Made by a program: the position numbers and the translations under genes | Source of the DNA: a virus | Virus record (IMG/VR): IMGVR_UViG_3300017734_000026 | Location: 1-36,137 of that record | DNA: 36,137 nt | Direction: 5' to 3' (one strand) | In this document: in pieces, positions 738-24,800 of the stretch | How the letters are laid out: every line of letters begins with the position of its first letter | Numbering within the stretch: the first letter of the stretch is position 1 | The notes under the pieces: generated by a model | What the model was told of the DNA's origin: nothing | The model's database searches: none | The model's input: the letters and a program-made list of their open reading frames with translations, nothing else

Positions 738-757
738 TTATATTAAATTAAATTAAA
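738..757 (+). promoter_or_regulatory. TTAAA-repeat leader of groEL
   Basis: Three TTAAA units (743-757) run directly into the groEL ATG, preceded by ACAACAATTA. There is no Shine-Dalgarno. A very similar leader (AACAAT and TAAAT units) precedes the gene at 10491. A role in translation initiation in a host that does not use Shine-Dalgarno sequences is inferred. Confidence 0.45.
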
Positions 758-2304
758 TGCAAGAATTAAAGTTAGTTAAAAACCTGACTTTTGGCGAAAC
801 TGCCAGGGGTCAGGTATTAACTGGCGTTGAAAAACTTACTAATGCTGTAGGTTCAACGCTAGGAGCAAGTGGAAAATGTGTTATATTAGAAGATAACGAA
901 GGTAAACCACAAATTACAAAAGATGGAGTTACTGTAGCTAACAGTATAACATTAAGAGATCCATTGGAAAATATTGGAGCTACGCTAATTAAGCAAGCAG
1001 CTCAAAGAACAGTATCAGACGCAGGTGACGGAACAACCACTGCTACAGTATTAGCAAAAGCTATACTAGATGAAGCAGAGTCTCATTCTTTGTTAGATGA
1101 TGAGAGAGTAATGAGAGAAGGTATAAACAAAGGCGTTGATAATGTTGTTAAATACTTAAATAAAGTATCTAAAAAAGTAACAGGTAAAAAAATTGATCAG
1201 GTAGCTACTATATCGGCTAACAACGATAAAAAACTAGGGTCGATAATTGGGCAAGCGTTTAAAATGGTTGATGAAACTGGGGTTGTTATGATGGAAACAA
1301 ATGAACAGCCAGAAACATCAGTAGAGTTAATAGAAGGAGTTCAATACGATCAACCACTAAAAAATAACCACTTTATTACCAACAAAGAAAAAGGAACGGC
1401 TGAGTTAAATAATCCGCTAGTACTCATCGTTGAGTCACAAATACCCAACATAAGGAAAATTCAGTCGATCCTTGAATATATTATAAAAAATAATAAAAGC
1501 TTACTTATTATTGCAGATGTTGATCAACAAGTGGTTTCCGCGTTGGCAATGAACAAGAAGAAGGGTAACATAAAGGTCAACATAGTAAGCGCACCAGTAT
1601 ATGGAATCAGCAAAAAAGATACATTATCAGATCTATGTGCTGTGACTGGTGCTACTCTTATTAACGAAGATCTAGGCGATGATATGGATTTAATACAACC
1701 AGAGCATTTAGGTTCATGTGTAAAATCTGTTACTAGCCATGAGGACACTATAATACAAGTTGACACATCTGAAAAGCCAGAAGTTGAGGATCTAATAAAA
1801 ATGTTAGAAAATCAAATAAAGAAAACAACTAATCCCAACATATTGGTTAGGCTTGAAAAAAGATTAGCTAAATTAAAAGCTAAAGTTGCAGTAATAAAAG
1901 TAGGGGCCAATTCTGAAATAGAACTAAAAGAAAAGCTTGATAGAGTTGAAGATGCTATTTGTGCTACAAAAGCAGCGATTAAAGAAGGTATAGTACCAGG
2001 TGGTGGTATAGCTTTATTGAATGCTAGTAAAACACTAACACCAAAAAGTATAGGCGAAGAGGTATTGTATCAAGCAATACAAAGACCTTATAAGCTTATA
2101 TTAGAAAACGCAGGAGTAAAAGAATATGTAGACCCAGACGAAGATGGTAGAGGTTTAGATGTTATTACTGGTACAAGCGTAGATATGGTAAAAGCAGGAA
2201 TTATAGATCCTTTATTAGTTACAAAAAGTGCTTTAAAAAATGCAGCTTCTGTAGCTACTACCATATTATCAACTGATTGTGTAGTTAACAACATTAGAGT
2301 ATGA
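757..2304 (+). CDS. groEL: Phage-encoded chaperonin GroEL (Hsp60, group I)
   Basis: This is a 515-residue chaperonin subunit that should form an ATP-driven folding chamber in the host cytoplasm. Signature elements are present: a TLG nucleotide-contact turn near 34-36, KDG at 55-57, GDGTTT at 90-95, catalytic Asp399 in VEDA (Escherichia coli D398) and PGGG at 414-417. The apical domain is complete, with an LLIIADVD segment and Ile/Leu-rich substrate helices. Differences from cellular GroEL are LGPKG changed to LGASG at 35-39 and a shortened loop near 454-480. The chain also stops after the last domain, with no Gly-Gly-Met tail. It is about 30 residues shorter than usual. The TGA stop overlaps the groES start by 4 bases. 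It probably folds phage virion proteins; this role is inferred. Confidence 0.97.
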   Translation: MQELKLVKNLTFGETARGQVLTGVEKLTNAVGSTLGASGKCVILEDNEGKPQITKDGVTVANSITLRDPLENIGATLIKQAAQRTVSDAGDGTTTATVLAKAILDEAESHSLLDDERVMREGINKGVDNVVKYLNKVSKKVTGKKIDQVATISANNDKKLGSIIGQAFKMVDETGVVMMETNEQPETSVELIEGVQYDQPLKNNHFITNKEKGTAELNNPLVLIVESQIPNIRKIQSILEYIIKNNKSLLIIADVDQQVVSALAMNKKKGNIKVNIVSAPVYGISKKDTLSDLCAVTGATLINEDLGDDMDLIQPEHLGSCVKSVTSHEDTIIQVDTSEKPEVEDLIKMLENQIKKTTNPNILVRLEKRLAKLKAKVAVIKVGANSEIELKEKLDRVEDAICATKAAIKEGIVPGGGIALLNASKTLTPKSIGEEVLYQAIQRPYKLILENAGVKEYVDPDEDGRGLDVITGTSVDMVKAGIIDPLLVTKSALKNAASVATTILSTDCVVNNIRV

Positions 2305-2561
2305 AAGCGGTAGGTAAGTATATAGTTATAGATCCTATCAAAGAAGTTGATACGACTACAAAAGGAGGTTTAATTCTAGCTGAAAAGCAAAGAGAAGATA
2401 TAAGATACAGAAGAGCTAAGGTTGTAGAACCTGGCTCTGATGTAAAAGCGTTAAACAAAGGTGATGAAGTTTATTACGACAGGTCAGCGGGTTTTAACAT
2501 AGAGATTAAAAAAGAAAACTATAAAGTCATTAAAGAACATGACGTTGTAATAATACTGTAA
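2301..2561 (+). CDS. groES: Phage-encoded co-chaperonin GroES
   Basis: This 86-residue protein is shorter than cellular GroES (~97). It has the Cpn10 pattern: an N-terminal strand (KYIVIDPI), a mobile loop carrying the GroEL-contact tripeptide as GGLIL at residues 22-26, and a beta-barrel segment with KGDEVYYD. The C-terminal strand VVIIL lies where GroES ends. The mobile-loop motif corresponds to GGIVL in E. coli GroES, so docking to the GroEL encoded just upstream is expected. ATG overlaps the groEL TGA by 4 bases, suggesting coupled translation. Cellular operons carry groES before groEL; here the order is reversed. Confidence 0.95.
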   Translation: MKAVGKYIVIDPIKEVDTTTKGGLILAEKQREDIRYRRAKVVEPGSDVKALNKGDEVYYDRSAGFNIEIKKENYKVIKEHDVVIIL

Positions 2562-3313: not shown

Positions 3314-3757
3314 ATGTTAAGATTAACTTCTTCAGATTTAAAGGAAATAGGTTTATTAAAACATTACAGGATCATAAGAAAATGGGCTTGTAAAAACAAC
3401 AATTTAAACGATGCTGACTTAGAGTTACTGATTTATTTAGATTCTATTGAGCATTTTAACAAAGATGATTTTAAAAGAGGTACATATTCTTATAGCTGGG
3501 ATAACAGACGCTGGAACAGATTATTGAAACAAGGGTGGATTATAGTGTGGAGAGAAAGAAATCGCACAACCCAAAAATATCATATATATAAAGTTTCCTT
3601 AAAGTGTAAACAGCTAATAAGTAGAATGTATCGTATCATGTTAGGTGAAGAAGATATAGTTAAAGGTAAAATAGATAAAAGTAATAAATATATTCATAAA
3701 GTAATCTCTAAATCTATAGATTACTTAAATAAAGATAAAACAAGAGGATATGTCTAA
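3314..3757 (+). CDS. Winged-helix-like small protein, 147 aa
   Basis: This is a soluble, aromatic and basic protein. The order of predicted helices (LNDADLELLIYLDSI, then NRRWNRLLKQGWI near residues 71-83) followed by a beta hairpin (IIVWRERNRTTQKYHIYKVS) matches a winged helix-turn-helix fold of MarR-like type. A further helical segment with LISRMYRIMLGEE and a basic tail follow. I recall this layout from marine phages, where it is often labelled a helix-turn-helix protein of unknown role. DNA binding or a regulatory role is inferred from the fold. Its 3' end overlaps the next gene by 8 bases. Confidence 0.75.
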   Translation: MLRLTSSDLKEIGLLKHYRIIRKWACKNNNLNDADLELLIYLDSIEHFNKDDFKRGTYSYSWDNRRWNRLLKQGWIIVWRERNRTTQKYHIYKVSLKCKQLISRMYRIMLGEEDIVKGKIDKSNKYIHKVISKSIDYLNKDKTRGYV

Positions 3758-5588
3758 ATTAAGCAAAAAAAACAGACAAGTTAGAAAACAAGCACCGACT
3801 AAAGCGGTAGGGGCAATAGCTGCCGTAGGAGCAAAAGTTCTACCTGCCATAGCTAAATTTGCTGCTAGTAATCCAGAGGCTACTAAAAAGGCTGGCGGTC
3901 TTATTAAAAATATGATTGCTAAAAAAAATAACAAAGAAGAGGTTGCTCAATCTGGATCTGCTGATCCTAAAATTAATTCTAGCAGCGGCTCTTTTGGTGC
4001 TTATCAACCTTTAGCAGCCCCAATGTCTCCATTTGCTAAAATAACTAATATAGACGCTAAAGCTTTAAATCACGATGTAGTAGGTTCTAATATGAAAGTT
4101 AGTGGATCTTTAAGTGATCCTACAAGAAACGTTCCAAACACTGCAGTAGGCGCTGTAACTGCAACAAAACAAAATAGCGCTGTAATTGATGGAACTACTT
4201 ATACTACTAGTGAGAGTACAGCAAGCGTTAATCCATCAACTGGAAACATGTCTAAGCCACCTGCTAGTAACAGTAATAAATCAAAACCTACTAGCGATGG
4301 TAAAAGCACATCTAACCCAAATAATGCTAAAAATGCTGTTGAAAGTTCTAAATCTACTAGTGATGGTGTAAATACTAAGTTTAATCCTAATTTAATAGGT
4401 AAAGATACTCAATATGGTATAAACCATAAGCCTTACTGGGAAGATGTGTCTAAAGATCCAAATAAGCCAAAGTGGAAAAAAAGAAATATAATAATTGTAC
4501 GTGACGTTGAAGGCGAGATAAAAAAAGGAAAGAAAATTAGTCGTACTAATCCTTTTGGTAAGCCTGAAGCTAAGCCCGCAAATAACCCTCCACCAAAGTC
4601 AACGAATAATCCTGCGCCAGTTAAACCTGATCTAAACAAGAAGACATCTAATACAGACCCAGGTGCACAAGGATACCTCAAAATTAGTAATCCTTTATTT
4701 CAAGAAGGCTACAATAATAAAGGTAAGTGGTTTCCAGGATTAAACAATGCTGTTAATAAAAGAACAGAAATGAGAGAAAAGGGTGATGAAGTTGGCGAAG
4801 CTCATTATCAAGCTATAATAGACAAACTCAGAAGTGCAACTGATCTTAATAAAACTCAGAATAATTCTAAACAAAAAAAATCTGAATATTTAGGAGAGTT
4901 TGATCAAAGTGGTGTTCAAGTAAGTAGTAGAAAAGGAGACGCTGGTAATACAAAAAGCATTCACAAAACTCACTCAGGTGGTAACACAAACATAGTATCT
5001 TCTAAAACTAGTAATAATACTAAAGCTGTAAAACCATCTATTAGCTCAAATGTTAAAGGAAATACGAGCAATGTTAAGGATGTTAATAAGCCTGAGATAA
5101 TAACTAATAAAAACGGTACTTTTAGAAGAGTTAAAGGCGCGGACAATGTTGTAACAAGCTTTGAAAAGATTTCTTCTTTGGGTGGTGATAATGTTTTCAA
5201 TATACCAAAAAAGAAAAAAGCTGATTTTTCAAACTTTGCAGGAATTTCACCTTTTGATCCTAATAAAAAGCTTGATGTACAAAGCGGATTAAGTAAAAAT
5301 CCTGGAACAACATCTACTGCTAACATTGCTAGTGGACAAGAAGTACAACTTAATCCAGCTGCTCCAAAACCTAAGACAGAGGGTAACAAGCCTAAGCAAT
5401 CACCAGAACCAACTGGTGGAAAAGGAGTGAAAAAAGTTAAAAAAGACCTTTTCAAAGAAAGAAAAAAGTCTGATAAAAAGTCAAAAACTACAAAAACAAA
5501 AAAGAGCACAAAGAACAATAAAAATAGAAGAAGTAATAATGGTATTGTTAAAGTAGGTAAAAACCCTTTATTCTCAAGTAAAAAATAA
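3750..5588 (+). CDS. Long disordered Lys/Ser/Asn-rich protein, 612 aa
   Basis: No family is recognised. The N-terminus is basic (residues 1-18), followed by an Ala-rich hydrophobic helix (19-39) that could be a membrane or capsid-contact segment. Residues ~60-540 are low complexity, rich in Ser, Asn, Thr, Lys and Pro, with scattered short motifs such as KPYWEDVSKDP. The last ~60 residues are a Lys-rich tail ending in KVGKNPLFSSKK. The length, lack of globular core and basic tail suggest a nucleic-acid-contacting or flexible virion protein, but function is unknown. The start overlaps the previous gene by 8 bases. Confidence 0.7.
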   Translation: MSKLSKKNRQVRKQAPTKAVGAIAAVGAKVLPAIAKFAASNPEATKKAGGLIKNMIAKKNNKEEVAQSGSADPKINSSSGSFGAYQPLAAPMSPFAKITNIDAKALNHDVVGSNMKVSGSLSDPTRNVPNTAVGAVTATKQNSAVIDGTTYTTSESTASVNPSTGNMSKPPASNSNKSKPTSDGKSTSNPNNAKNAVESSKSTSDGVNTKFNPNLIGKDTQYGINHKPYWEDVSKDPNKPKWKKRNIIIVRDVEGEIKKGKKISRTNPFGKPEAKPANNPPPKSTNNPAPVKPDLNKKTSNTDPGAQGYLKISNPLFQEGYNNKGKWFPGLNNAVNKRTEMREKGDEVGEAHYQAIIDKLRSATDLNKTQNNSKQKKSEYLGEFDQSGVQVSSRKGDAGNTKSIHKTHSGGNTNIVSSKTSNNTKAVKPSISSNVKGNTSNVKDVNKPEIITNKNGTFRRVKGADNVVTSFEKISSLGGDNVFNIPKKKKADFSNFAGISPFDPNKKLDVQSGLSKNPGTTSTANIASGQEVQLNPAAPKPKTEGNKPKQSPEPTGGKGVKKVKKDLFKERKKSDKKSKTTKTKKSTKNNKNRRSNNGIVKVGKNPLFSSKK

Positions 5589-6206: not shown

Positions 6207-6364
6207 TGGGCATAGAGGACATAAAGTTATATTGTTTAAATATAACATCGGCTACCATAGTGGGACTAGGTTGGCTTGAGCCTGTGTTGTCTATACTACT
6301 ATTATTAGTAACTATTGGGTACACTACTAACAAGTGGTACTTAATGAATAAAGGTAAAAGATGA
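6206..6364 (+). CDS. 52-aa single-span membrane protein, holin candidate
   Basis: One strongly hydrophobic Leu/Val/Ile helix is seen at about residues 25-41, after a Trp/Pro turn (GWLEP). A short positively charged tail (NKWYLMNKGKR) would sit in the cytoplasm. The gene is joined to the upstream one by TAATG, and its TGA overlaps the amidase ATG by 4 bases, so it is probably co-translated with the endolysin. Size, topology and position fit a small holin or holin-like lysis protein. No family assignment is possible at this length, and it may be a different small membrane protein. Confidence 0.65.
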   Translation: MGIEDIKLYCLNITSATIVGLGWLEPVLSILLLLVTIGYTTNKWYLMNKGKR

Positions 6365-6774
6365 GAAGCATAAACGAAATTATTATACATTGCTCTGCTA
6401 CTAGAGAAGGTCAAGATATATCAGTTGATACTATTAAAAAATGGCACGTTGAAGGTAGAGGTTGGTCAGACATAGGCTATCATTTCTATATTGATATAAA
6501 TGGTAAAATATGGAAAGGAAGAGATATAGATCGATCAGGGGCTCATTGTAAAAATCACAATAGAAATTCAATAGGGGTGTGTTATTGCGGAGGCGTAGAG
6601 GCTGACGGTAAAACACCAAAAGACACAAGAACAGAAGCGCAAAAAGAAAGTCTATTACATGTGTTGAAAACATTAATGGCTATGTTCCCGCTTGCTACTA
6701 TTTATTCACACAATGAGTTTGCTAATAAAGCATGCCCATCATTTGACGCAACTAATGAGTACAAAGATCTCTGA
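6361..6774 (+). CDS. N-acetylmuramoyl-L-alanine amidase (T7 lysozyme-like endolysin)
   Basis: This 137-residue Amidase_2 / peptidoglycan-recognition domain enzyme should cut the bond between muramic acid and L-alanine in the host wall at lysis. The zinc ligands are visible as His10 (IIIHCSA), His117 (SHNE) and Cys125 (KACPSFD), with Tyr40 (GYHFY) and Lys123 in the catalytic positions. Spacing between the last two ligands is 8 residues, as in T7 lysozyme. NSIGVCYCGG is the usual core strand. There is no signal peptide, so export would depend on a holin, for which candidates lie on both sides. Its start overlaps the upstream small membrane gene by 4 bases. Confidence 0.95.
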   Translation: MRSINEIIIHCSATREGQDISVDTIKKWHVEGRGWSDIGYHFYIDINGKIWKGRDIDRSGAHCKNHNRNSIGVCYCGGVEADGKTPKDTRTEAQKESLLHVLKTLMAMFPLATIYSHNEFANKACPSFDATNEYKDL

Positions 6775-10745: not shown

Positions 10746-10956
10746 AAAAATTAGCATAGGTTCTGACTACAAGAATGATGCAATGCATTATTCTGTAGGT
10801 CAAGAAGTTTATGGTGGACATATAATTAGTGATATTCTTTTTGAAGATAGTGATCAGTCTTATAATATTTTTATTTCTAAAAATGATGAGGTTTTACCTT
10901 GGAAAAAGTTTAATAAAAATATGTCTGTTTCGATTGAGTTTGACTTGAAGTATTAA
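10732..10956 (+). CDS. 74-aa small beta-rich protein, unknown
   Basis: This short soluble protein begins MKKIRKISIGSDYKNDAMHY and has a YGGHIISDI strand pair and a Trp-Lys segment (LPWKKFNKN). It overlaps the previous gene by 14 bases and shares its last base with the next start (TAATG). The arrangement coiled coil, small beta protein, GroES-like protein is one I recall from related marine phages. Function is unknown. Confidence 0.7.
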   Translation: MKKIRKISIGSDYKNDAMHYSVGQEVYGGHIISDILFEDSDQSYNIFISKNDEVLPWKKFNKNMSVSIEFDLKY

Positions 10957-11549
10957 TGAAAAGTTTATATAGTTTTATTGTAAGACCTTTAAGTGAAAGA
11001 TATGAAAATATCAAAAAAATTGAAGGAAAAAATCTTATCATTAATTCAAGTATTGAAGATCATAGGTTTGTTAGTAAAAAAGCTGTTGTTGTTTCTACTC
11101 CAGCAGCTTTTACCTCAAAGATAAAAGTAGGTGATAAAGTTTACGTACATCACAATATATTTAGAAGATGGTATAATATAAGAGGTGAAGAGAAAAACTC
11201 TTCAACACATTTTAAAGATAACTTATATTTTGCATATCCTGATCAAGTATATATGTATAATTTAACATCTCACTTAAACTACTGCTTTGTTAAACCAATT
11301 AAAAACCAAAACTTATTAGAGAATAGAAACGAGCAACCTAACGTTGGTATAGTGAAATATACTAATAATGCTTTAGAAGCCATAGGAATAACACCTGGGA
11401 CGCTTGTAACGTTTACACCTGACTCTGAATTTGAGTTTATTATAGAAGGTGAAAGACTTTATTGTATGAAATCAAATAACATAGCTTTAACGCATGAATA
11501 CCAAGGAAACGAAGAAGAAAATAATCCAAGCTGGGCAAAAGGCTATTGA
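10956..11549 (+). CDS. GroES-like phage protein with two barrel halves, 197 aa
   Basis: The chain reads as two GroES-like beta-barrel halves. Half one (~38-105) contains KVGDKVYVHHNIFRRWY (57-73) and ends PDQVYMY. Half two (~107-183) contains GIVKYTNN, then ITPGTLVTFTPDSEFEFII and a terminal strand. The VGD and PGT turns followed by a hydrophobic strand are the Cpn10 hallmark. The C-terminus EYQGNEEENNPSW looks conserved from memory of phage relatives often labelled co-chaperonin. No classical GGxxL mobile loop is obvious, so docking to GroEL is uncertain. It could be a dedicated capsid-folding co-chaperonin or a structural protein built on the same fold. Confidence 0.65.
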   Translation: MKSLYSFIVRPLSERYENIKKIEGKNLIINSSIEDHRFVSKKAVVVSTPAAFTSKIKVGDKVYVHHNIFRRWYNIRGEEKNSSTHFKDNLYFAYPDQVYMYNLTSHLNYCFVKPIKNQNLLENRNEQPNVGIVKYTNNALEAIGITPGTLVTFTPDSEFEFIIEGERLYCMKSNNIALTHEYQGNEEENNPSWAKGY

Positions 11550-11769
11550 AGAACTAATTAAGGTAGCAAAAGAGAAGATTGTTGACTCAGACGACGACAT
11601 AAGCGCTGATAGATTAAAAAATGCTGCCGCTACTAAAAAGCTAGCTATAATGGATGCTTTTGAAATACTTCAACGTATAGATGCAGAGGAAGATATGTTA
11701 AATGAAAAACCTAAAGAAGTTAAAGTAGAAAAAACTTTTAAAGGTTTTGCAGAAGGGAGAAGTAAGTGA
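11494..11769 (+). CDS. Putative small terminase subunit, 91 aa
   Basis: This is a helical acidic protein immediately upstream of TerL. The segment ADRLKNAAATKKLAIMDAF (residues ~39-57) resembles the helical core of many small terminase or terminase-adjacent phage proteins, with charged flanks and a C-terminal FKGFAEGRSK. Its start lies 56 bases inside the previous gene, longer than the other overlaps here, so a later non-ATG start is possible. It ends in a GTGA junction with the TerL start. The small-subunit role is inferred mainly from position and size. Confidence 0.5.
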   Translation: MNTKETKKKIIQAGQKAIEELIKVAKEKIVDSDDDISADRLKNAAATKKLAIMDAFEILQRIDAEEDMLNEKPKEVKVEKTFKGFAEGRSK

Positions 11770-13982
11770 GTTACCAGCAAACTCTTTGGAAAGAAATTAA
11801 GGACATTGTTAATCCTAAAATATTAGCTAAAAACAATAGGTTTAAAAAATGGGAGTATGGTTATAACTCTGATTATGATTTTATAGTAATAAGTAAAACA
11901 GGTGAAATTGGACAAATCATTGAAATACAAAATCTCAGGATTGCTTTACCAGCAACAGATGAACCGTTTAAACGAAGTAAAAAAGAAGCGGAACAATATT
12001 GGGAAAAGCAAGAATACCCAAAAGAACTAAGCAAAATAAAAAGCAGATTTGATTGGGAAGAGTACCCATCAGATTTTAAAGAAAAATGGTATGACTATAT
12101 CGACAAAGAATTTAAGCGTAGAGAAGAAGGTTTTCATTTCTTCAACCGTGGCAATCCTGTATATATTACTGGTACTCATTACATGTACTTGCAATGGTCA
12201 AAAATCGACGTTGGGGCACCAGACTATAGGGAATCAAACAGACTCTTCTTTATATTTTGGGAAGCATGTAAAGCAGACGCAAGATGCTATGGTATGTGTT
12301 ACCTTAAAAACAGACGATCTGGATTCTCTTTTATGTCAAGCGCGGAACTTGTCAACCAAGCTACAATATCTTCCGATGCTAGATTCGGTATACTTTCCAA
12401 GTCTGGAGCCGATGCCAAAAAAATGTTTACAGATAAAGTTGTCCCAATATCCGTTAATTATCCGTTTTTCTTCAAACCAATTCAAGACGGTATGGATCGG
12501 CCAAAAACTGAGTTGGCATATAGGGTTCCGGCATCCAAACTTACTAGAAGAAAGCTGGAAACGAATGAACAACTTAGAGAACTAGAAGGACTTGATACAA
12601 CTATTGACTGGAAAAACACGGGTGATAACTCTTACGATGGTGAAAAGCTAAAACTATTAGCTCATGATGAAAGTGGTAAATGGGAAAGACCTGACAATAT
12701 ATTAAACAACTGGAGGGTTACAAAAACTACATTAAGACTAGGATCTAAGATCGTGGGTAAATGTATGATGGGCTCAACATCAAATGCTTTAGACAAAGGT
12801 GGAGACAATTTTAAAAAATTATACGAAAGTTCAGACGTTGTTAAAAGAAATAGAAACGGACAAACGGCTTCTGGACTCTATAGCTTGTTCATACCTATGG
12901 AGTGGAACTACGAGGGATTCATCGATACTTACGGATTGCCTGTATTCATTAGAGGACAAAATAGTGTCAAAGGAGCAGATGGTTATGAAATTACAACAGG
13001 AGTTATTGAACACTGGGAAAATGAAGTCGAAGGTTTAAAAGGAGATCAAGACAGTTTAAACGAATATTATAGACAATTTCCAAGAACTGAACAGCACGCG
13101 TTTAGAGATGAAACTAAAAATAGTTTATTTAATCTAACTAAAATATATGAGCAAATAGACTATAATGAAGAGTATGATAATAAATTAAAAATAACTAAAG
13201 GTAGTTTTTCTTGGGCAATAGAAGGTGAAAAAGTTATTTTTAACCCAAACAATAATGGTAGATTTTTAGTGTCTTGGATACCACCACTAGAGCTACAAAA
13301 TAAAGTAATTATAAAAAATGGCATTAAATACCCTGCTAACGAACACGTTGGAGCTTTCGGCTGTGACTCTTATGATATTAGCGGTACTGTTGATGGTCGC
13401 GGCTCTAAAGGAGCATTACATGGACTGACAAAGTTTAGTATGGAAGAAGCTCCTGCTAATATGTTTTTTTTAGAATATATAGCTAGACCTCAAACAGCAG
13501 AGCTGTTTTTTGAAGATGTTTTAATGGCGCTTCATTTTTATGGAATGCCTATACTTGCTGAAAATAACAAACCTAGATTATTATATTATTTAAAAAGAAA
13601 AGGTTATAGAAAATTTAGTATAAACAGACCTGATAAAGTATGGAACAAGCTTTCCATTACAGAAAAAGAAATAGGTGGTATACCAAACTCAAGTGAAGAT
13701 ATTAAGCAAGCTCACGCTGCTGCTATAGAAAGCTATATAGAAAGTTATGTGGGTATTAAAGAAGAAGTACATGGAGATATGTATTTTCAAAAAACATTAG
13801 AAGACTGGTCTCAATTTAATATTAACAACAGAACTAAGCATGATGCTTCTATAAGCTCAGGTTTAGCTATAATGGCTTGTAATAAAAATAGATATGTACC
13901 AGTAGATAAAAGAACTACAAAGTCTATTAACTTAGGTATAAGAAGATATGATAATGAAAGTTATGTTTCAAAAATGATATAA
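11766..13982 (+). CDS. terL: Terminase large subunit
   Basis: This 738-residue packaging motor combines an N-terminal ATPase with a C-terminal nuclease. The ATPase has an atypical Walker A, NRRSGFSFMSS (182-192), with Phe where Lys normally stands. The Walker B is LLAHDE with Asp301-Glu302. The RNase H-type nuclease acids are visible as Asp534 (GCDSYD), Glu599 (LAEN) and Asp693 (KHDA). Length and the strand FFLEYIARPQTAELFFED match terminases of crAss-like and related phages from memory. The gene starts at GTG, overlapping the previous TGA by 4 bases; the next ATG is far inside. Confidence 0.93.
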   Translation: MSYQQTLWKEIKDIVNPKILAKNNRFKKWEYGYNSDYDFIVISKTGEIGQIIEIQNLRIALPATDEPFKRSKKEAEQYWEKQEYPKELSKIKSRFDWEEYPSDFKEKWYDYIDKEFKRREEGFHFFNRGNPVYITGTHYMYLQWSKIDVGAPDYRESNRLFFIFWEACKADARCYGMCYLKNRRSGFSFMSSAELVNQATISSDARFGILSKSGADAKKMFTDKVVPISVNYPFFFKPIQDGMDRPKTELAYRVPASKLTRRKLETNEQLRELEGLDTTIDWKNTGDNSYDGEKLKLLAHDESGKWERPDNILNNWRVTKTTLRLGSKIVGKCMMGSTSNALDKGGDNFKKLYESSDVVKRNRNGQTASGLYSLFIPMEWNYEGFIDTYGLPVFIRGQNSVKGADGYEITTGVIEHWENEVEGLKGDQDSLNEYYRQFPRTEQHAFRDETKNSLFNLTKIYEQIDYNEEYDNKLKITKGSFSWAIEGEKVIFNPNNNGRFLVSWIPPLELQNKVIIKNGIKYPANEHVGAFGCDSYDISGTVDGRGSKGALHGLTKFSMEEAPANMFFLEYIARPQTAELFFEDVLMALHFYGMPILAENNKPRLLYYLKRKGYRKFSINRPDKVWNKLSITEKEIGGIPNSSEDIKQAHAAAIESYIESYVGIKEEVHGDMYFQKTLEDWSQFNINNRTKHDASISSGLAIMACNKNRYVPVDKRTTKSINLGIRRYDNESYVSKMI

Positions 13983-16403
13983 ATGAAAATAAACACAAAT
14001 TTTAATAGTTCATTTCCAAGTCAGCTTGTTTCAAACGAAGAAAAAGCTAGTTTAGATTATGGCCTGCAAGTTGCAAAAGCTATAGAGGGAGAATGGTTTA
14101 AAGTTGATGCTGGGGCTGGTATGAATGACAGGTTTAGAACTAACTACAACAATTTTCATAGACTTAGATTATATGCTAGAGGTGAACAGTCAATACAAAA
14201 ATATAAAGATGAATTATCTATAAATGGTGACTTGTCTTATTTAAACTTAGATTGGAGGCCAATACCAATAATACCTAAGTTTGTTGATATTTTAATAAAT
14301 GGAATATCTTCTAAAGATTACCAAATAAAAGCCTTTGCTCAAGATCCAGCTTCTCTAAAACAAAGAACTGACTATGCTGCTAACTTACTAAGAGACATGC
14401 AAGCTAAAGATCTTTTGATGAAATTAAAGAACACAGCTAACATTGATGTGTTTAATGTTGACGACCCTGACAAGCTTCCTGAAGACGAACAAGAGCTTGA
14501 CTTGCATATGCAATTAGACTATAAACAGTCAATAGAAATAGCAGAAGAAGAAGCTATAAATAACACGCTTTCAAGAAATAAATATGATTTAATAAAAAGA
14601 AGGTTAGTAGAAGATTTAACTGTTTTAGGCATAGCCGCAGTTAAAACAGGCTTTAATAGATCAGAGGGCGTTAAGGTTGAGTATGTTGACCCAACTAATA
14701 TTGTTTATTCTTACACTGAAGATCCTAATTTTGATGATTTATATTATGTAGGTGAAGTGAAGTCAGTTAGCTTGCCAGAGCTTAAAAAACAATTTCCATA
14801 TCTTTCAGAGCAAGATCTTTCTGAAATACAAAAATATCCAGATTCTTATAGTTACGGAAGAAATTTTAGTGACAGGCAAAACGATGATACAGTTCAAGTG
14901 TTATATTTTGAATATAAAACTTTCACTAATCAAGTGTTTAAAATAAAGCAAACAGCTCAAGGTTTAGAAAAGTCTTTAGAAAAAGGAGATGATTTTAATC
15001 CACCAGAAAATGACTCTTTTGATAAAGCTTTTAGATCAATAGAGGTTTTATATACGGGCGCTAAAATATTAGGTCACAACAAAATGTTGAACTGGAGAAT
15101 AGCTGAAAACATGACAAGGCCTAACAGTAATACTGTTAAAGTTAATATGAACTACAATATTGTAGCTCCTAAAATGTATAAAGGTAGAATAGAGTCTACT
15201 GTTAGTAGAATAACAGGTTTTGCTGATATGATACAAATAACACATTTAAAGCTACAACAAGTATTGTCAAGAATGGTTCCAGATGGTGTGTATATGGATG
15301 TAGATGGTTTGTCAGAAGTTGATCTTGGTAATGGAACTAGCTACAACCCTGCAGAAGCATTAAATATGTATTTTCAAACTGGTAGTATTGTAGGTAGGTC
15401 AATGACACAAGACGGTGGTATGAACCCGGGTAAAATTCCAATACAAGAACTACAAACCTCAGCAGCTCAGTCTAAAATAGGATCTCTTATACAAACTTAT
15501 CAATATTACTTACAAATGATAAGGGATGTGACAGGATTAAATGAAGCAAGAGACGCTAGCACGCCAGATAAAAACGCGTTAGTAGGTTTACAAAAGTTAG
15601 CAGCTGCTAATTCAAATGTGGCTACAAGACATATACTTCAATCTTGCCTGTATTTAACTTTAAGAACTTGTGAAAATGTTGCATTGAGAATATCAGACTC
15701 TTTAAAGTTTTCTTTAACAAACGAAAGTTTAAAGTATAGTATAAGCTCTTATAATGTAGGCACGCTTGCAGACATAGATAATTTACATCTAAGAGATTTT
15801 GGTATTTACTTAGAGCTAGAGCCTGACGAAGAGCAAAAAGCTATGTTAGAACAAAACATACAGGTGGCTCTTCAAGGCGGAGGTATAAACTTAGAAGATG
15901 CTATAGACATTAGGCAAGTTAAAAACCTAAAATTAGCTAACCAAATGCTTAAGCTTAAAAGAAAGCAAAAAGCTAAAGCTGATCAAGAGGCACAGCAAGC
16001 TAATATACAAGCTCAAGCTCAAGCAAATGCTCAATTAGCAGAACAAACTGCTTTAGCTGAAACTCAAAAACAACAAGTGTTAACTGAACAAAGTATACAG
16101 TTAGAAAAAATGAAATCAGAGTTTGCCACTGCTAAAATGAGAGAAGAAGCTCAAATAAAAATGCAATTAATGGAGCAGGAGTTTCAATATAACATGAAAT
16201 TAAACTCATCTAAGCTAAATCAAGATAACGAAAAATTAAAAGAAGTTGAAGATCGTAAAGATCAAAGAACAAAAATACAAGCCTCTCAACAAAGTGAAAT
16301 GATAGATCAAAGAAAAAATAACTTAACACCAATAAACTTTGAATCTGCCGGTAATGACACTTTAGATGGTGGCTTTAATCTAGAACAGTTTGTTCCTAGA
16401 TAA
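13983..16403 (+). CDS. Portal protein
   Basis: This is an 806-residue portal subunit, expected to form the dodecameric ring at the head vertex through which DNA passes. The N-terminal part contains RLYARGEQSIQKYK, DWRPIPIIPKFVDILING and a wing/stem region. Its order right after TerL and its size (~800, like crAss-like and P22 portals) support the call. Residues ~660-780 are a Gln/Ala/Glu-rich coiled coil, as in portal barrels that extend into the head. The chain ends in a short GGFNLEQFVPR peptide. It begins one base after the TerL stop. The call rests on memory of portal relatives and on gene order. Confidence 0.9.
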   Translation: MKINTNFNSSFPSQLVSNEEKASLDYGLQVAKAIEGEWFKVDAGAGMNDRFRTNYNNFHRLRLYARGEQSIQKYKDELSINGDLSYLNLDWRPIPIIPKFVDILINGISSKDYQIKAFAQDPASLKQRTDYAANLLRDMQAKDLLMKLKNTANIDVFNVDDPDKLPEDEQELDLHMQLDYKQSIEIAEEEAINNTLSRNKYDLIKRRLVEDLTVLGIAAVKTGFNRSEGVKVEYVDPTNIVYSYTEDPNFDDLYYVGEVKSVSLPELKKQFPYLSEQDLSEIQKYPDSYSYGRNFSDRQNDDTVQVLYFEYKTFTNQVFKIKQTAQGLEKSLEKGDDFNPPENDSFDKAFRSIEVLYTGAKILGHNKMLNWRIAENMTRPNSNTVKVNMNYNIVAPKMYKGRIESTVSRITGFADMIQITHLKLQQVLSRMVPDGVYMDVDGLSEVDLGNGTSYNPAEALNMYFQTGSIVGRSMTQDGGMNPGKIPIQELQTSAAQSKIGSLIQTYQYYLQMIRDVTGLNEARDASTPDKNALVGLQKLAAANSNVATRHILQSCLYLTLRTCENVALRISDSLKFSLTNESLKYSISSYNVGTLADIDNLHLRDFGIYLELEPDEEQKAMLEQNIQVALQGGGINLEDAIDIRQVKNLKLANQMLKLKRKQKAKADQEAQQANIQAQAQANAQLAEQTALAETQKQQVLTEQSIQLEKMKSEFATAKMREEAQIKMQLMEQEFQYNMKLNSSKLNQDNEKLKEVEDRKDQRTKIQASQQSEMIDQRKNNLTPINFESAGNDTLDGGFNLEQFVPR

Positions 16404-16428: not shown

Positions 16429-17577
16429 TCAAAAGTCGAAGTAAAACAAGAGGGTGACTTTAAAATTAAAAAGAAACCTAAAAAATTGGTAAATCAAGAT
16501 AAAGATGCTAAAATTGATTTATCTAGAAACAAAGAAAAAGAAAACGTAGATGCTAAAATTAATTTAGCTGAAAAACCAGTTGAAAAAGTAGAGCAACCAG
16601 TAGTAGAACAAGTTGCAGAAAAAACTGAAACAGAAAAACCAACAGAAGAAAAACCAGAAAAAGAAACTTCGCCAATACAAGAGTTAACTGTTCAAGAAAA
16701 AGAGCAAGTTAAAAAAGTAGAAAATAAAGTAAAGGAAGCGATAAGAGATGAAAAAGTTTTAGGCAAACAACTACCTGAAAACATCGAAAAGTTAGTTTCA
16801 TTTATGGAAGATACAGGCGGAACTGTTGAAGACTACGTTAGAATAAGCGCTGACTACAGCGATATTGATGATAAAGCTCTATTAAGAGAATATTATAAAA
16901 ATACTAAACCACATCTTGATCAAGGAGAAGTAGATTTTATTATGGAAGATAATTTTTCCTATGATGAAGAAATGGATGAAGAGCGAGACATAAAGAAAAA
17001 GAAACTCGCTTATAAAGAAGAAATTGCTAAAGCCCGTACGTTTTTAGACGGCTTGAAAGATAAATATTATGCTGAAATTAAAAATAGGCCTAATGTTACT
17101 AACGAGCAGAAAAAAGCTATGGACTTTTTCAATAGATACAATGAGGATCTAGCACGTGTAGATGAAGTTAGACAGAGTTTTACTAATAGAACTAAAGATT
17201 TTTTTCAAGACGACTTCAAAGGTTTTGAGTTTAACGTCGGAGAAAAAAGATTTAACTATAGGGTAAATGATGTTGATTCAGCTGTTAATAAGCAGTCTAA
17301 TATAGATAACTTTTTAAGTGACTTTATAGAAGACGGTGAAATTAAGAATATGGATAAATATCATAAAGCTCTTTTCGCTGCACGAAATGCTGATACTATA
17401 GCAAATCACTTTTACGAACAAGGAAAAGCTGATGCAACTAAAGACATTATGTCTAAATCTAACAATATTAATGACGAACCTAGGAAAGTTTCCAACGGGG
17501 AAGTATTTGTAAACGGATGGAAAGTTAAAGCTATATCAGGTATAGATAGTTCTAAATTGAAAATTAAAAAACGATAA
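16426..17577 (+). CDS. Putative scaffolding protein, 383 aa
   Basis: It lies between portal and major capsid genes, where tailed phages usually encode the scaffold. The first ~110 residues are low-complexity Lys/Glu/Val/Pro, the middle is acidic and helical (with MDEERDIKKKKLAYKEEI), and the C-terminal third is mixed and ends in a basic tail. It is predicted as largely helical, with no protease catalytic triad that I can see. A helical basic C-terminus is typical of scaffolds that contact capsid protein. There is no sequence signature, so this is inferred from position and composition. It has its own AT-repeat leader. Confidence 0.65.
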   Translation: MSKVEVKQEGDFKIKKKPKKLVNQDKDAKIDLSRNKEKENVDAKINLAEKPVEKVEQPVVEQVAEKTETEKPTEEKPEKETSPIQELTVQEKEQVKKVENKVKEAIRDEKVLGKQLPENIEKLVSFMEDTGGTVEDYVRISADYSDIDDKALLREYYKNTKPHLDQGEVDFIMEDNFSYDEEMDEERDIKKKKLAYKEEIAKARTFLDGLKDKYYAEIKNRPNVTNEQKKAMDFFNRYNEDLARVDEVRQSFTNRTKDFFQDDFKGFEFNVGEKRFNYRVNDVDSAVNKQSNIDNFLSDFIEDGEIKNMDKYHKALFAARNADTIANHFYEQGKADATKDIMSKSNNINDEPRKVSNGEVFVNGWKVKAISGIDSSKLKIKKR

Positions 17578-17597: not shown

Positions 17598-19022
17598 ATG
17601 GCGGGACAATTCGCAAACAACGATCCAAAGGGAAGATTTTCAATCTCTCCTATGCCAGCAGAGTCTAAGTTCGTTACTCAACAAAATTATCTTAATTTTC
17701 ACGACGGCTCAGCTGATTGGACACAACAATTTCTACCAGAACTTTACGAAGCAGAAGTAGAAAGATACGGAAACCGAACTTTAGGTGGTTTCTTGAGAAT
17801 GGTAGGTGCAGAAATGCCTATGACTTCTGACCAAGTAATTTGGTCTGAACAAAATAGACTACACATTGGTTATAGTGACGCAAAGGTTACATCTGGTACT
17901 AAAATTGAAATTACATTACCAAACGACGAGCCAACTTGCGCTGTAAGAAAAGGTGCTACTATTGCTGTTAATGATGCAGCAGGTAAAGAAACTATCAAAG
18001 CTAAAGTTACAGCTGTGACTGTTTCTGGAGCTGGTAGTGATGCATCACCTTACAAAGCTGAATTAACAGTGGTAGCTTATGGTTTAACTGACATCAACGA
18101 CAAAATAGCTAACGATACTGCTGTTAAACTATTTGTTTATGGTTCAGAGTTTTCTAAAGGAAGCGCTGGAATGATTGGTGCTTTACAACCTAAGTTTACT
18201 TCTTTCGCTAACAAGCCAATTATTATTAAAGATAGATACGAAGTTAACGGTTCTGATGCCTCTCAAATTGGATGGGTTGAAGTTGCTACTGAAGACGGAA
18301 CATCTGGATACTTATGGTACTTAAAAGCAGAATCAGAAACTAGATTAAGATATGATGATTATCTTGAAATGGCAATGGTTGAAGGTATTACTAACGATGG
18401 TGGTAATGCTGGTGAAGAAGGTACAGAAGGTATGTTTGAGGCTATTGAAAAAAGAGGAAATGTATACACTGGATTTGCTGCCACACAAGGTTTAGATGAT
18501 TTTGATAAAATCTTACAAAACCTAGACAAGCAAGGTGCTATTGAAGAAAACATGTTATTCTTAAACAGAGCTATGAACTTAGACTTTGATGATATGTTAT
18601 CTGAAGTAGGTGGTGTACAGGGAACTGGATCTGCTTATGGTCTTTTTGACAATGACGCTGATATGGCTCTTAATTTAGGATTTTCAGGTTTTAGAAGAGG
18701 TTCTTATGACTTCTACAAAACTGATTGGAAATACTTAAATGACCCAACTACAAGAGGTATGTTTGCTGACATTGATGGTGTTTTAGTTCCTGCTGGAACT
18801 TCTACAGTTTACGATCAAATGTTAGGTGCAAACATTAGAAGACCGTTCTTACACGTAAGATATAGAGCTTCTGAAACTGAAGATAGACGTTACAAGTCTT
18901 GGATTACTGGATCTGTCGGTGGTGTTTACACTAACGATGTTGATGCAATGGAAGTACATTTCTTATCTGAGAGATGTCTTTGTGTTCAAGCTGCTAACAA
19001 CTTCTTATTATTCAAGAAGTAA
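17598..19022 (+). CDS. Major capsid protein (HK97 fold)
   Basis: This 474-residue shell protein follows TerL, portal and scaffold. Its features fit a crAss-like-type major capsid protein. The N-terminal arm is extended (MAGQFANNDPKGRFSISPMP). There is an E-loop/P-domain region with RYGNRTLGGFLRMV and an insertion rich in Lys/Thr/Ala strands (~residues 115-165). A conserved-looking block (FLNRAMNLDFDDML, then TDWKYLND) sits in the C-terminal half, with a hydrophobic C-terminus (AANNFLLFKK). It is probably the most abundant protein of the phage. A strong hairpin follows the stop by 12 bases, suggesting its mRNA end is protected. The identification rests on gene order and remembered family patterns. 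Confidence 0.9.
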   Translation: MAGQFANNDPKGRFSISPMPAESKFVTQQNYLNFHDGSADWTQQFLPELYEAEVERYGNRTLGGFLRMVGAEMPMTSDQVIWSEQNRLHIGYSDAKVTSGTKIEITLPNDEPTCAVRKGATIAVNDAAGKETIKAKVTAVTVSGAGSDASPYKAELTVVAYGLTDINDKIANDTAVKLFVYGSEFSKGSAGMIGALQPKFTSFANKPIIIKDRYEVNGSDASQIGWVEVATEDGTSGYLWYLKAESETRLRYDDYLEMAMVEGITNDGGNAGEEGTEGMFEAIEKRGNVYTGFAATQGLDDFDKILQNLDKQGAIEENMLFLNRAMNLDFDDMLSEVGGVQGTGSAYGLFDNDADMALNLGFSGFRRGSYDFYKTDWKYLNDPTTRGMFADIDGVLVPAGTSTVYDQMLGANIRRPFLHVRYRASETEDRRYKSWITGSVGGVYTNDVDAMEVHFLSERCLCVQAANNFLLFKK

Positions 19023-21895: not shown

Positions 21896-24800
21896 ATGGC
21901 CGAAGTAAAGAATACTTTTATGGCGTCTAAGATGAATAAAGACTCAGACTCCAGAATTGTACCTAACAACGAATATAGAAACGCTACAAACATATCTGTA
22001 AGCAGGTCAGAAGGATCAGATGTTGGTGCTCTTGAAAATATAAAAGGAAATGAAATTTTAAAACAACTTGACGGTAACAGGTTGTATAACTATGGATTTG
22101 AATGTATAGGTTTTTGTAAAGATGAAGCCAATGATAAGTTGTTTTTATTTATTACTAACTTTGTTGATTCTTCTAATTTAGTAGTTCCTAGTAATTTACA
22201 AACAGAATTTACTCACGTACCCGTTGCTCCAGTAAGTAATATGTCTTGTCAGATTTTAAACGTTGATTTAAAAACTAATACACATTCAGTAGCTGCTCAA
22301 GGTAATTGGTTAAACTTTTCCAAAACGAATAGAGTAGAGGCCGTTATAATAGAAGATCAATTATTTTGGACTGACAACAGGAACCAACCTAGAAAGTTAA
22401 ATATAAACGGAGGTCTGTACAGTAGTGAGGACCACGTTTCTTTAGCAAAATACTACCCATACCAACCAATAGAACTTCATACAAGAAGCGTAGCAAACCC
22501 TGTTACAACTATGGTCAATAAAACTAATAAACTCTTAACTTATTCTATTACTGCTATTTCTGACGCTGGTGGTGGAACTCTTTTAACAAACCCTGGCAGT
22601 AGTACTAATATGGTTTTACCTTTAAGGTATAAAGATAATTTTGAGTTGTTTAATGAAGATTATTTAGGATCCAATAAAGCTAAATTTTTAACATCAAAAG
22701 ATATACCAGGCTTATCTAAGAATAACTCTGTAACAGTTGTATCTGTGTCAAATGGTAGTTACTCTGGTATAGATTATAAGCTTGTTACTTTAAACGGTAA
22801 TAATGGTGATTTAGTAAAAATATTTGATGCTGTTAACGGTACTACAGGTAATAACACTGGTATAAAATTTTATTTCCACTACGAAAATCCAGATTATAGC
22901 AACTCTTTTGCTGGAGACTCTGATTTTTTGAAAAAGAAGTTTGTTAGGTTTAGTTATAGATTTAAGTTCGATGATAACGAATATTCTTTAATAGCTCCTT
23001 TTACACAAGCTTGCTTTATACCAGAGCAATTTGGTCATTTCTTAGACTACGACGATGCAAGAATTAAAAACTCAGGTCACGTTTCATTTTTTCAAAACTT
23101 AGTACAGCAAATATCACTATTTGTGAAATTACCTTGTAACGTTGATGATCTTGATAATATTTTTCATATATCAGATTTAGAAATACTATATAAAGAAGAT
23201 AAAGGCACTAATATACACGTAGTCGAATCCTTAAGCGTGGAAGATCTTATATCTAACTTTCCTAATAACGACTACATAGAGTATCAATACATAGGCAACA
23301 ACCCAATAAAAGTATTGCCTGAGCAAGAAAACACTAGAGTTTATGATAAAGTACCTGTTAGAGCTCTTACAATGGCTTCTGTAGGTAATAGAGTTGTTTT
23401 TGGTAACTATATAGATAGACAAAGTTTTCCAAAATCAATACCTTACAGAGTTAATTCAGGTTTTAAACTAGATTACAACGAAACATCAAAAACAGGTGTA
23501 GCTTCTAGAGAGTATCCATTGCACTCTTTAAAACAGAATAGAACTTATCAAGTTGGTTTTGTTTTAGCAGATAGATATGGTAGACAATCTGAAGTAATAT
23601 TATCTAGTTACGACGTTAGTAGTGTTGTTGATGGTGGTAAAAACTTTGGAGCTTCATCTTTATATGTTCCATACATACCTGAAGCTGGGACAGGTATACA
23701 GCTTTGGTTTGGTAACTCGCTGAAAATATATTTAGATGATAAAATAGAACCTGGTGATTCAAACTCAAGAACTAAGGGATTATACGATCCAGTTTATAAT
23801 CCACTTGGATGGTACTCTTATAAAATAGTTGTAAAACAACAAGAGCAAGATTATTATAATGTATATTTGTCAGGTATAAACTCTTTAACTCCTAAAACTA
23901 TAAAAACTAGTTCACCTACAGAAATAAAATATTTATATCAAGCTAGCGAAAACAAAGTTCAAGTAGAACTTTCTGGTGATAATATAAACAAAATACCTAG
24001 ATCTTTAATAAATGTAGGTCCAAGAGATAGTAAATTTGCAGGTAGCGATGTTTCATTATTTCCAAGAGTAAATCCTAAAAACTTTAAAGTTAACTTGATG
24101 GCTTTTCCAGGAGATGAACAACCTTTTAAAGCTGACACTGTTTCTACTATAGCTGCTTTCAACGATTACAACCTAGAGACTAGTGATATGTGGGATTTTT
24201 ACAATGATGGCATACCACTAACTAGTTCTGCTTCTTTACCTATAGCAACAATAACTTCTTCTAACTCTTTTAGAATGGGTCCTGACGGTTATGAAGACAG
24301 CAATGGAGACCCTAGCCCAGGCTACGTTAATGCTAGGTTTCAGACTTTAGCTGTTTATGAAACGGAACCTGTAAAAAGCGAGATAGATATATATTACGAA
24401 ACAAGTACAACTGGTTTAATATCTCAATTAAACGCAGCGCAAGATATTGTTGCTGACCCTGGAGGTTTTCAAGATACTGATGGCAATGATACTTCACAAG
24501 GAGACTCTTTACAGTATTTACAAAAAGAATCTATGGCTACTGGTTCAGATGTAACCTTACCTTTCGCTTTAACAAACACTAGCGGACAAACAATAGTTGA
24601 ACCACACACAGTAACACTAGACTCTGTAATAACATCTACAGGTAGTAATATTGCTAGTAAGTTCACTTTATCAGGTTCAAGCGGCTCGTATGTTGTAAAA
24701 ACAGCTGCAGAAGATTTTGTATTTTTACAAAATAATCCAACATTTACTTTTAATTTTACAGCAACAATAACTTCCTCTGGAACTACTACTTCTTTATCTT

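Follow-up and report, generated by a model that had tools for sequence, protein, structure and literature searches.

The stretch of DNA analysed (the window) is a viral record of 36,137 bases. Near its start lies a groEL gene encoding a group I chaperonin of 515 aa without a GGM tail (757..2304, + strand), followed by a small groES of 86 aa with a short roof segment and a longer mobile loop (2301..2561, +). Both genes are intact and on the same strand, groEL comes first, and the groEL stop and groES start share four bases, ATGA (2301..2304, +), read directly from the sequence. GroEL was matched by Pfam Cpn60_TCP1 (PF00118; E 2e-53, 182 bits, cut-off 34.3) and phrog_5725 (E 2.7e-131), and the small GroES by Pfam Cpn10 (PF00166; E 6.2e-12, 45.8 bits, cut-off 21.1) and phrog_3188 (E 4.1e-14). 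At the level of the GroEL subfamily (NCBIfam NF000592) the window protein scored 463.6 bits, above the cut-off of 397; its 454.3 bits against the GroEL equivalog TIGR02348 fell below the cut-off of 582.1, and the best score of the small GroES against the NCBIfam GroES equivalogs was 35.5 bits (cut-off 120). The original prediction, a complete pair with groEL first and a 4-base overlap, was confirmed by the open reading frames, the Pfam matches and the ATGA sequence.

Head-type genes lie downstream of the pair. They include the terminase large subunit (11766..13982, +; phrog_6681, E 1.1e-164), the portal protein (13983..16403, +; phrog_6547, E 2.2e-149) and a candidate major capsid protein of 474 aa (17598..19022, +; phrog_13704, 'head and packaging', E 6.1e-93), a possible chaperonin client that is 37% identical to a Calle_1 protein annotated as structural/major capsid protein. 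The phage from which the window comes is podovirus-like, and its relatives indicate that the host group is probably Bacteroidota.

Recurrence and order of the groEL-groES pair

IMG/VR was scanned with GroEL and the best 80 of 109 relatives were kept, giving 81 loci with the window (L001-L081, the window being L001). In one of these, a contig of 48,585 bases (L002), GroEL is identical to that of the window. groES directly follows groEL in 80 of the 81 loci; the one exception (L063) ends 86 bases beyond the groEL frame, and its GroEL match extends only to residue 495. The two genes overlap by 4 bases in 65 and by 17 bases in 15 of the 80 loci, the window counted. Since the same genes occur in the same order in 80/81 loci, the arrangement is far beyond chance. 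When loci found through the tandem gene described below were added, groEL came first in all 111 IMG/VR loci showing both genes; these correspond to about 105 distinct records by contig name and 86 distinct GroES ends, and they are related and so not independent events.

Gene order was compared with that in 82 control loci, comprising 80 loci from a bacterial scan, E. coli, and one 'Acinetobacter phage' contig with bacterial-type flanking genes. groES was upstream in 76, there was no groES in the fetched stretch in 5, and groEL was upstream in one (L315), where the frames are about 870 bases apart. The groES-first order that had been ascribed to cells therefore held in 76/82 control loci, nearly all of them bacterial. 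Deposited phages have either order: groEL precedes groES in elemo, ctfjg026 and Panino, and groES precedes groEL in Callevirus, immuto, DAC20 and also cthkR962, in which the GroES match is weak and under the Pfam cut-off. The idea that the reversed order is unique was rejected on the basis of elemo, ctfjg026, Panino and the 111/111 viral loci. Known phage chaperonins had been described as often a lone GroEL or a lone GroES substitute; complete pairs are annotated in the elemo, ctfjg026, immuto and Callevirus records. Because groEL-first is common to related viral loci, varies among deposited phages and differs from the groES-first order of 76/82 controls, gene order is regarded as the mark of a phage lineage and not as a singular event. 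In these marine phages the groEL-groES pair is nothing unusual and has been kept for a long time. A link of this kind between order and phylogeny is a point of likeness with the virioplankton chaperonins of Marine et al. (ISME J, 2017), where the order of the large and small subunit genes reportedly follows viral GroEL phylogeny; that study is not known to describe a tandem Cpn10.

The closest parallels in layout are elemo (Elemovirus, a Flavobacterium phage), ctfjg026 (a podovirus) and Panino (a Maribacter phage). In all three GroEL comes first, the small GroES is next, and a tandem Cpn10 gene of 180-187 aa lies by the terminase gene. They differ from the window in spacing and in that their GroELs are only 34-39% identical to that of the window (elemo 39%, Panino 38%, ctfjg026 34%); Panino in addition has a 44-codon ORF between groEL and groES.

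Origin and conserved features of GroEL and the small GroES

Among the matches listed, bacterial GroELs were 38-42% identical to that of the window and came from scattered phyla (E. coli, 38%). The top match in the phage database was immuto (41.8%). A GroEL tree of 82 rows was built, with 18 rows of the viral family and 48 bacterial GroELs after thinning, plus E. coli; it was rebuilt without eight long-branch rows (cr111_1, JM-2012, cthkR962, ctfjg026, phi14:2, cr108_1, VAP7 and Vibrio 144E46.1). Both trees were quick searches without bootstraps. The 18 family rows fell on one side of a branch, apart from the bacteria (SH-aLRT 100; 99), with a family stem branch of length 1.17, and elemo and Panino joined them next (SH-aLRT 97; 95). 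In the rebuilt tree Callevirus also joined the family, elemo and Panino (94), and the side with the bacteria, DAC20 and two Vibrio phages had a support of 98. The branches of elemo, Panino and Callevirus remain long, and those of elemo and Panino meet, which leaves their exact place unsure. The grouping of the window family with elemo and Panino, and more so the deeper order, is uncertain, because raw identity is no higher than to E. coli, the long branches meet and the trees were quick.

Residues were counted in 103 viral and 79 bacterial GroELs, after 9 of 112 viral rows (those of 480 residues or fewer) and 1 of 80 bacterial rows had been set aside. At 12 of 16 positions that we take to form the nucleotide site, all 103 full-length viral GroELs have the E. 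coli residue; D52, D87, T90, T91, D398, G415 and D495 are among these. At the remaining four, P33A and A480V were found in 103/103, A481 is replaced by V or I, and position 479 (N in E. coli) holds either D or N, a variation also seen in bacteria. Judged by these residues, GroEL is catalytically intact at D52, D87 and D398. Median dN/dS, taken over loci whose gene is as long as that of the window and over pairs with dS between 0.05 and 1.2, was 0.087 for groEL (84 pairs), 0.149 for groES (807 pairs) and 0.147 for the tandem gene (681 pairs); all three genes are under purifying selection.

These results bear on whether a host groE operon was recently captured and its gene order swapped. Capture does occur in other phages: in the tree, GroELs of Vibrio phages fall within the gammaproteobacteria, and that of DAC20 stands beside a Bacteroidales row. 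For the window it is highly improbable: the bacterial identities noted above are low and scattered over phyla, the long stem is set apart from bacteria with good support, and the order is the opposite of that in 76/82 controls. The divergence of GroEL together with purifying selection and intact catalytic residues likewise makes recent host capture unlikely. The phylogeny called for by the original prediction, aimed at a recent intact host capture, revealed none in either the GroEL identity scan or the trees. As far as sequence comparison can tell, the chaperonin system is that of an old phage lineage and not a recent host gene.

The apical domain has several changes of a fixed type relative to bacteria (L234Q and V264M in 103/103, Y203H in 97/103, Y199L in 94/103). 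Since apical positions are altered in a fixed way, the mechanism known from E. coli may not apply here. A GroEL that acts mainly as a holdase, or does something other than folding, and makes little use of the small GroES would be in keeping with these changes and has a precedent proposed for phage EL, whose chaperonin reportedly prevents aggregation without encapsulation and does not bind E. coli GroES (PMC7185714). We consider such a role improbable here. With 24% identity over 80% of the query, the EL chaperonin is far removed from that of the window, and it is described as having no co-chaperonin (PMC5934643), whereas groES follows groEL in 80/81 of the present loci.

The GGM tail is missing in 103/103 viral GroELs and was found in 69 of 79 bacterial sequences. 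Positions of ring-ring contact that are constant in bacteria appear eroded in the viral GroEL alignment. Position 109 is A or S in 79/79 bacteria but in only 3/103 viral rows, and is leucine in the window. Position 452 is R or K in 79/79 bacteria, whereas the viral rows have R or K in 39/103 and E in 46/103; the window has lysine (K452), which is bacterial-type (K in 10/79 bacteria). Position 464 is deleted in 97/103 viral rows, the window included, although the 461-464 loop is shortened and aligns poorly, so that those columns are less certain. The single-ring E. coli mutant SR1 carries R452E, E461A, S463A and V464A (PMC5653362). Positions mutated in SR1 appear altered in the viral family, and R452E is itself an SR1 change; K452 of the window GroEL sets it apart from single-ring chaperonins (SR1; phage OBP). 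Such erosion gives a hint that ring pairing of the phage GroEL may be weak, in a comparison where no known single-ring sequence served as a positive control. Net charge of GroEL regions, a crude proxy, gave nothing informative.

The small GroES has a clear Cpn10 fold in its predicted model (pLDDT 81.7, with low confidence in the mobile loop), which aligned with GroES 3nx6 at Z 12.0 and rmsd 1.3 over 64 residues. Within the mobile loop G22, G23 and L24 are invariant and L26 nearly so (35 sequences), matching what is presumably the GroES mobile loop motif, two glycines and a hydrophobic tripeptide. Segment lengths were measured on the alignment. The roof segment has 8 residues in 113 of 116 viral GroES, the exceptions being Panino (11, a further difference from the window), Callevirus (15) and L239 (7). 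In 76 control rows it has 17 residues in 44, 12 in 21, 16 in 6 and 8 in 3, with single rows at 10 and 21. The suggestion that a roofless GroES is unique to phages was softened accordingly, as three of the 76 controls (Sulfurovum, Helicobacter and Nitrospirae) also have 8 residues, and Bacteroidota, with 12 in 19/19 rows, are already below the 17 of E. coli. The mobile loop segment has 25 residues in 112/116 viral GroES vs 22 in 73/76 controls; PMC6318259 counts loop lengths differently. T4 gp31, according to that paper, has a lengthened mobile loop and no roof loops, and its larger chamber is thought to admit the capsid protein (PMC6318259). The small GroES resembles gp31 in its reduced roof and lengthened mobile loop relative to E. 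coli GroES. It differs in being only 15% identical in the structural alignment and in being accompanied by a phage GroEL, the partner of gp31 being host GroEL. By analogy, the chaperonin set may be tailored to the capsid protein, the GroES changes running in the direction of gp31, itself a co-chaperonin for a capsid protein.

The tandem Cpn10-like protein

The same window holds another co-chaperonin-like gene, overlooked in the original prediction. It lies at 10956..11549 (+), is predicted to encode a tandem Cpn10 of 197 aa, and is separated from the terminase large subunit gene by one 91-codon ORF. The protein matched phrog_13932 (E 1.1e-19), a PHROG labelled 'co-chaperonin GroES', and the records of elemo, Callevirus and Panino give its relatives the name cpn10 or GroES. 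In the Panino record the gene named GroES is that of the tandem protein, and the small GroES is labelled 'hypothetical'; the Panino paper states that both GroEL and GroES homologs were found. Pfam gave no match at all for the window's 197-aa protein; PF00166 does match the tandem proteins of phi46:3 (E 5.2e-8) and Calle_1 (E 2.2e-6). When aligned with Cpn10 by hhalign, domain 2 had a probability of 93.6 and domain 1 of 7.8, domain 1 not being recognisable as Cpn10 by sequence.

A model was predicted from 24 family sequences (pLDDT 84.5, pTM 0.81), L196 having been excluded from the alignment because its matched stretch holds a stop. Its best PDB match was a subunit of the co-chaperonin Cpn20, chain 7ekq_R (Foldseek E 2.9e-5); of the 233 Foldseek matches no other reached E <= 0.001. 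Residues 1-181 aligned with this chain at VIA Z 9.5 and rmsd 3.7 over 154 residues. The halves aligned with single Cpn10s, residues 1-103 with 4v4o_P and 102-181 with 8wuc_a, both at Z 7.8, a level at which the Z score by itself says little; dehydrogenases, which have a GroES-like domain of their own, enter the match list of the tandem model at Z 5.1. A search of the viral library gave another, independent model, of 200 residues and from Cellulophaga phage phi18:3, which aligned over its full length (E 4.1e-12). The 197-aa protein is accordingly predicted to be a tandem Cpn10, like Cpn20 in build and not a member of the Cpn20 family, since only domain 2 is recognisably Cpn10 by sequence.

Chloroplast Cpn20 is built of two Cpn10-fold domains arranged head to tail. 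It is found together with a single-domain Cpn10, with which it forms lids of seven domains; a review calls this tandem co-chaperonin type chloroplast-specific (PMC5780408). The phage protein shares with it the two Cpn10-fold domains in one chain, as modelled, and the company of a single-domain Cpn10. It differs in its bacteriophage origin, its low identity (16%), a domain 1 that is unrecognisable by sequence and a short loop in domain 2. A literature search, with most subscription papers outside its reach, found no paper on a phage tandem Cpn10.

The Cpn10 fold might instead have been reused in a head-assembly or packaging protein that is no co-chaperonin. The tandem gene is directly beside the terminase gene in elemo, Calle_1, phi38:1 and Panino and one small ORF away in ctfjg026 and the window, its domain 1 has no Cpn10 sequence match, the window protein has no Pfam match, the same fold occurs in alcohol dehydrogenases, and the loop of domain 2 is short where the GroES mobile loop sits. 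Yet domain 2 does match Cpn10 by profile (93.6 in the window family, PF00166 in phi46:3 and Calle_1), the top PDB match, which covers most of the protein, is a co-chaperonin, and several downstream neighbours in the phi38:1 record are labelled structural by similarity to phi18:1 while the tandem gene is not. A head or packaging role is on this evidence somewhat unlikely, and a co-chaperonin-like role is preferred.

Co-occurrence and proposed function

GroEL, small GroES and the tandem gene were sought together in 24 IMG/VR records, namely 9 records of 59.9-93 kb, to which GroEL had led in 5 cases and the tandem gene in 4, plus 15 tandem loci without GroEL in the fetched stretch. All three genes were present in 9/9 of the long records. 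For 11 of the 15 tandem loci a GroEL was found in another part of the record, and 7 of those 11 contigs had been picked up by the GroEL scan as well; the remaining four loci are on fragments of 12.3, 23.1, 14.8 and 20.3 kb, of which the 12.3-kb one starts with the small GroES. Over the 24 records the tandem gene was found in 24, the small GroES in 21 and GroEL in 20. Five isolate records (elemo, ctfjg026, Panino, Calle_1 and phi38:1) also carry all three. Nishimura et al. 2017 described 36 GroEL-positive 'group 2' Flavobacteriaceae phage genomes and linked such GroELs to those of Cellulophaga phages (PMC5332604). That group resembles the present one in that its members are environmental phages related to Cellulophaga phage phi38:1 and carry GroEL; the main text of that paper differs in discussing GroEL only, the word 'groES' being absent from it (PMC5332604).

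The record of Cellulophaga phage phi46:3 (Pachyviridae) encodes a small GroES of 84 aa and a tandem protein of 200 aa near the terminase gene, and gave no GroEL match across its whole 72,961 bases. The two lids can thus exist without a phage barrel and, if they are co-chaperonins, must both use host GroEL there. It is possible that co-chaperonins came first, serving host GroEL, and that GroEL was then held in some lineages. An arrangement of two lids and two barrels could be derived from the same case, in which the tandem Cpn10 of the window phage works with host GroEL in the manner of T4 gp31 and the small GroES with phage GroEL; the separation of the tandem and groES frames by 3.1-9.8 kb in 46 viral loci showing both fits this. 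Against it, the tandem gene stands alongside a phage GroEL in 5/5 other isolate records checked. We regard the two-barrel arrangement as a real possibility, though short of an even chance.

Our preferred interpretation is that the window probably encodes a phage-owned group I chaperonin system, which would likely fold virion proteins, together with a second, tandem co-chaperonin-like protein. GroEL and the small GroES would be made from one message with coupled translation, as the overlap suggests, giving a matched barrel and lid. To judge from the conserved residues and the fold, they could assemble into an ATP-driven cage with its lid. The cage may fold abundant phage proteins; T4 gp31 suggests by analogy that head proteins, for instance the capsid protein of 474 residues, are the likeliest clients, and a tail-less chamber with a low roof would favour large virion proteins. 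The tandem Cpn10 would probably act as an alternative or mixed lid, in parallel with chloroplast Cpn10/Cpn20. A more specific version, in which single-domain GroES and tandem Cpn10 co-assemble into an asymmetric seven-domain cap (e.g. three tandem and one single) on a single-ring, enlarged tail-less GroEL specialised for virion proteins, is offered only as a speculation that we think unlikely. The original suggestion that the phage builds its own folding machine is upheld in so far as the overlapping pair is complete, purifying selection acts on it and recent capture was not seen; the supposed novelty of the pair did not survive.

The interest of the locus lies in its three-part set of GroEL, gp31-like small GroES and tandem Cpn10. 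If the phage tandem Cpn10 is real, a build that has been called chloroplast-specific (PMC5780408) would also exist elsewhere. The cultured relatives elemo, Callevirus and phi46:3 would then make up a small genetic system in which to ask why there are two kinds of lid for one chaperonin. Two further questions could be put to it: is one ring enough, and for the sake of which virion proteins does a virus bring a folding cage of its own?

Crass-like phages with GroEL were also screened. None of the GroEL neighbours examined in phi14:2, cr108_1 and cr111_1 matched a GroES family in PHROGs or Pfam, the Pfam part covering these neighbours apart from the phi14:2 gene after groEL, and the whole records of phi14:2 and cr111_1 gave no PF00166 match. 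The cr111_1 record has a gene named 10 kDa chaperonin near the terminase gene.

Co-chaperonin genes in Panino and phi46:3

The record of Maribacter phage Panino (locus L087) gives the name 'co-chaperonin GroES' to the tandem protein, a predicted two-domain Cpn10 encoded at 23831-24376 of that locus, and the true small GroES (40132-40395) carries the label 'hypothetical'. Cellulophaga phage phi46:3 (locus L336; NC_021792.1, Pachyviridae) has two co-chaperonin genes, one small (3561-3815) and one tandem (16805-17407); a GroEL match was found nowhere across the entire record.

A putative 10kDa chaperonin and small ORFs beside groEL in crAss-like phages

Crass-like phage cr111_1 (locus L335) encodes, at 102-512, a 136-aa protein annotated in its record as a 'putative 10kDa chaperonin', with the terminase two genes away. 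This protein was weakly matched by the PHROG profile phrog_3188 (E 1.8e-4), the family of the window's small GroES, and no match was obtained when it was searched against Pfam. Two crAss-like phages (L330, 2951-3229; L331, 2960-3229) each have a small unknown ORF that overlaps the groEL end, at the position held by groES in the window. Neither ORF matched any GroES family.

A phage-labelled contig

Locus L325 (CAKLQH020000021.1, 'Acinetobacter phage MD-2021a') carries groES-groEL between bacterial-type genes (lipid kinase, diacylglycerol kinase). Although labelled as phage, the record is probably bacterial, and its GroEL should therefore not be counted as a phage protein.

Other reading frames of the window

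Positions 1-364 hold a low-complexity reading frame of Asp-Pro repeats that is open on its left side; the DNA there repeats with periods of 6 and 66. The reading frame at 30351-36137 has at least 1929 codons, continues past the right end and had no match in NCBIfam; it possibly encodes a giant virion or injection protein. An N-acetylmuramoyl-L-alanine amidase was identified at 6361-6774 (PF01510, E 1.1e-15) and is likely the endolysin.
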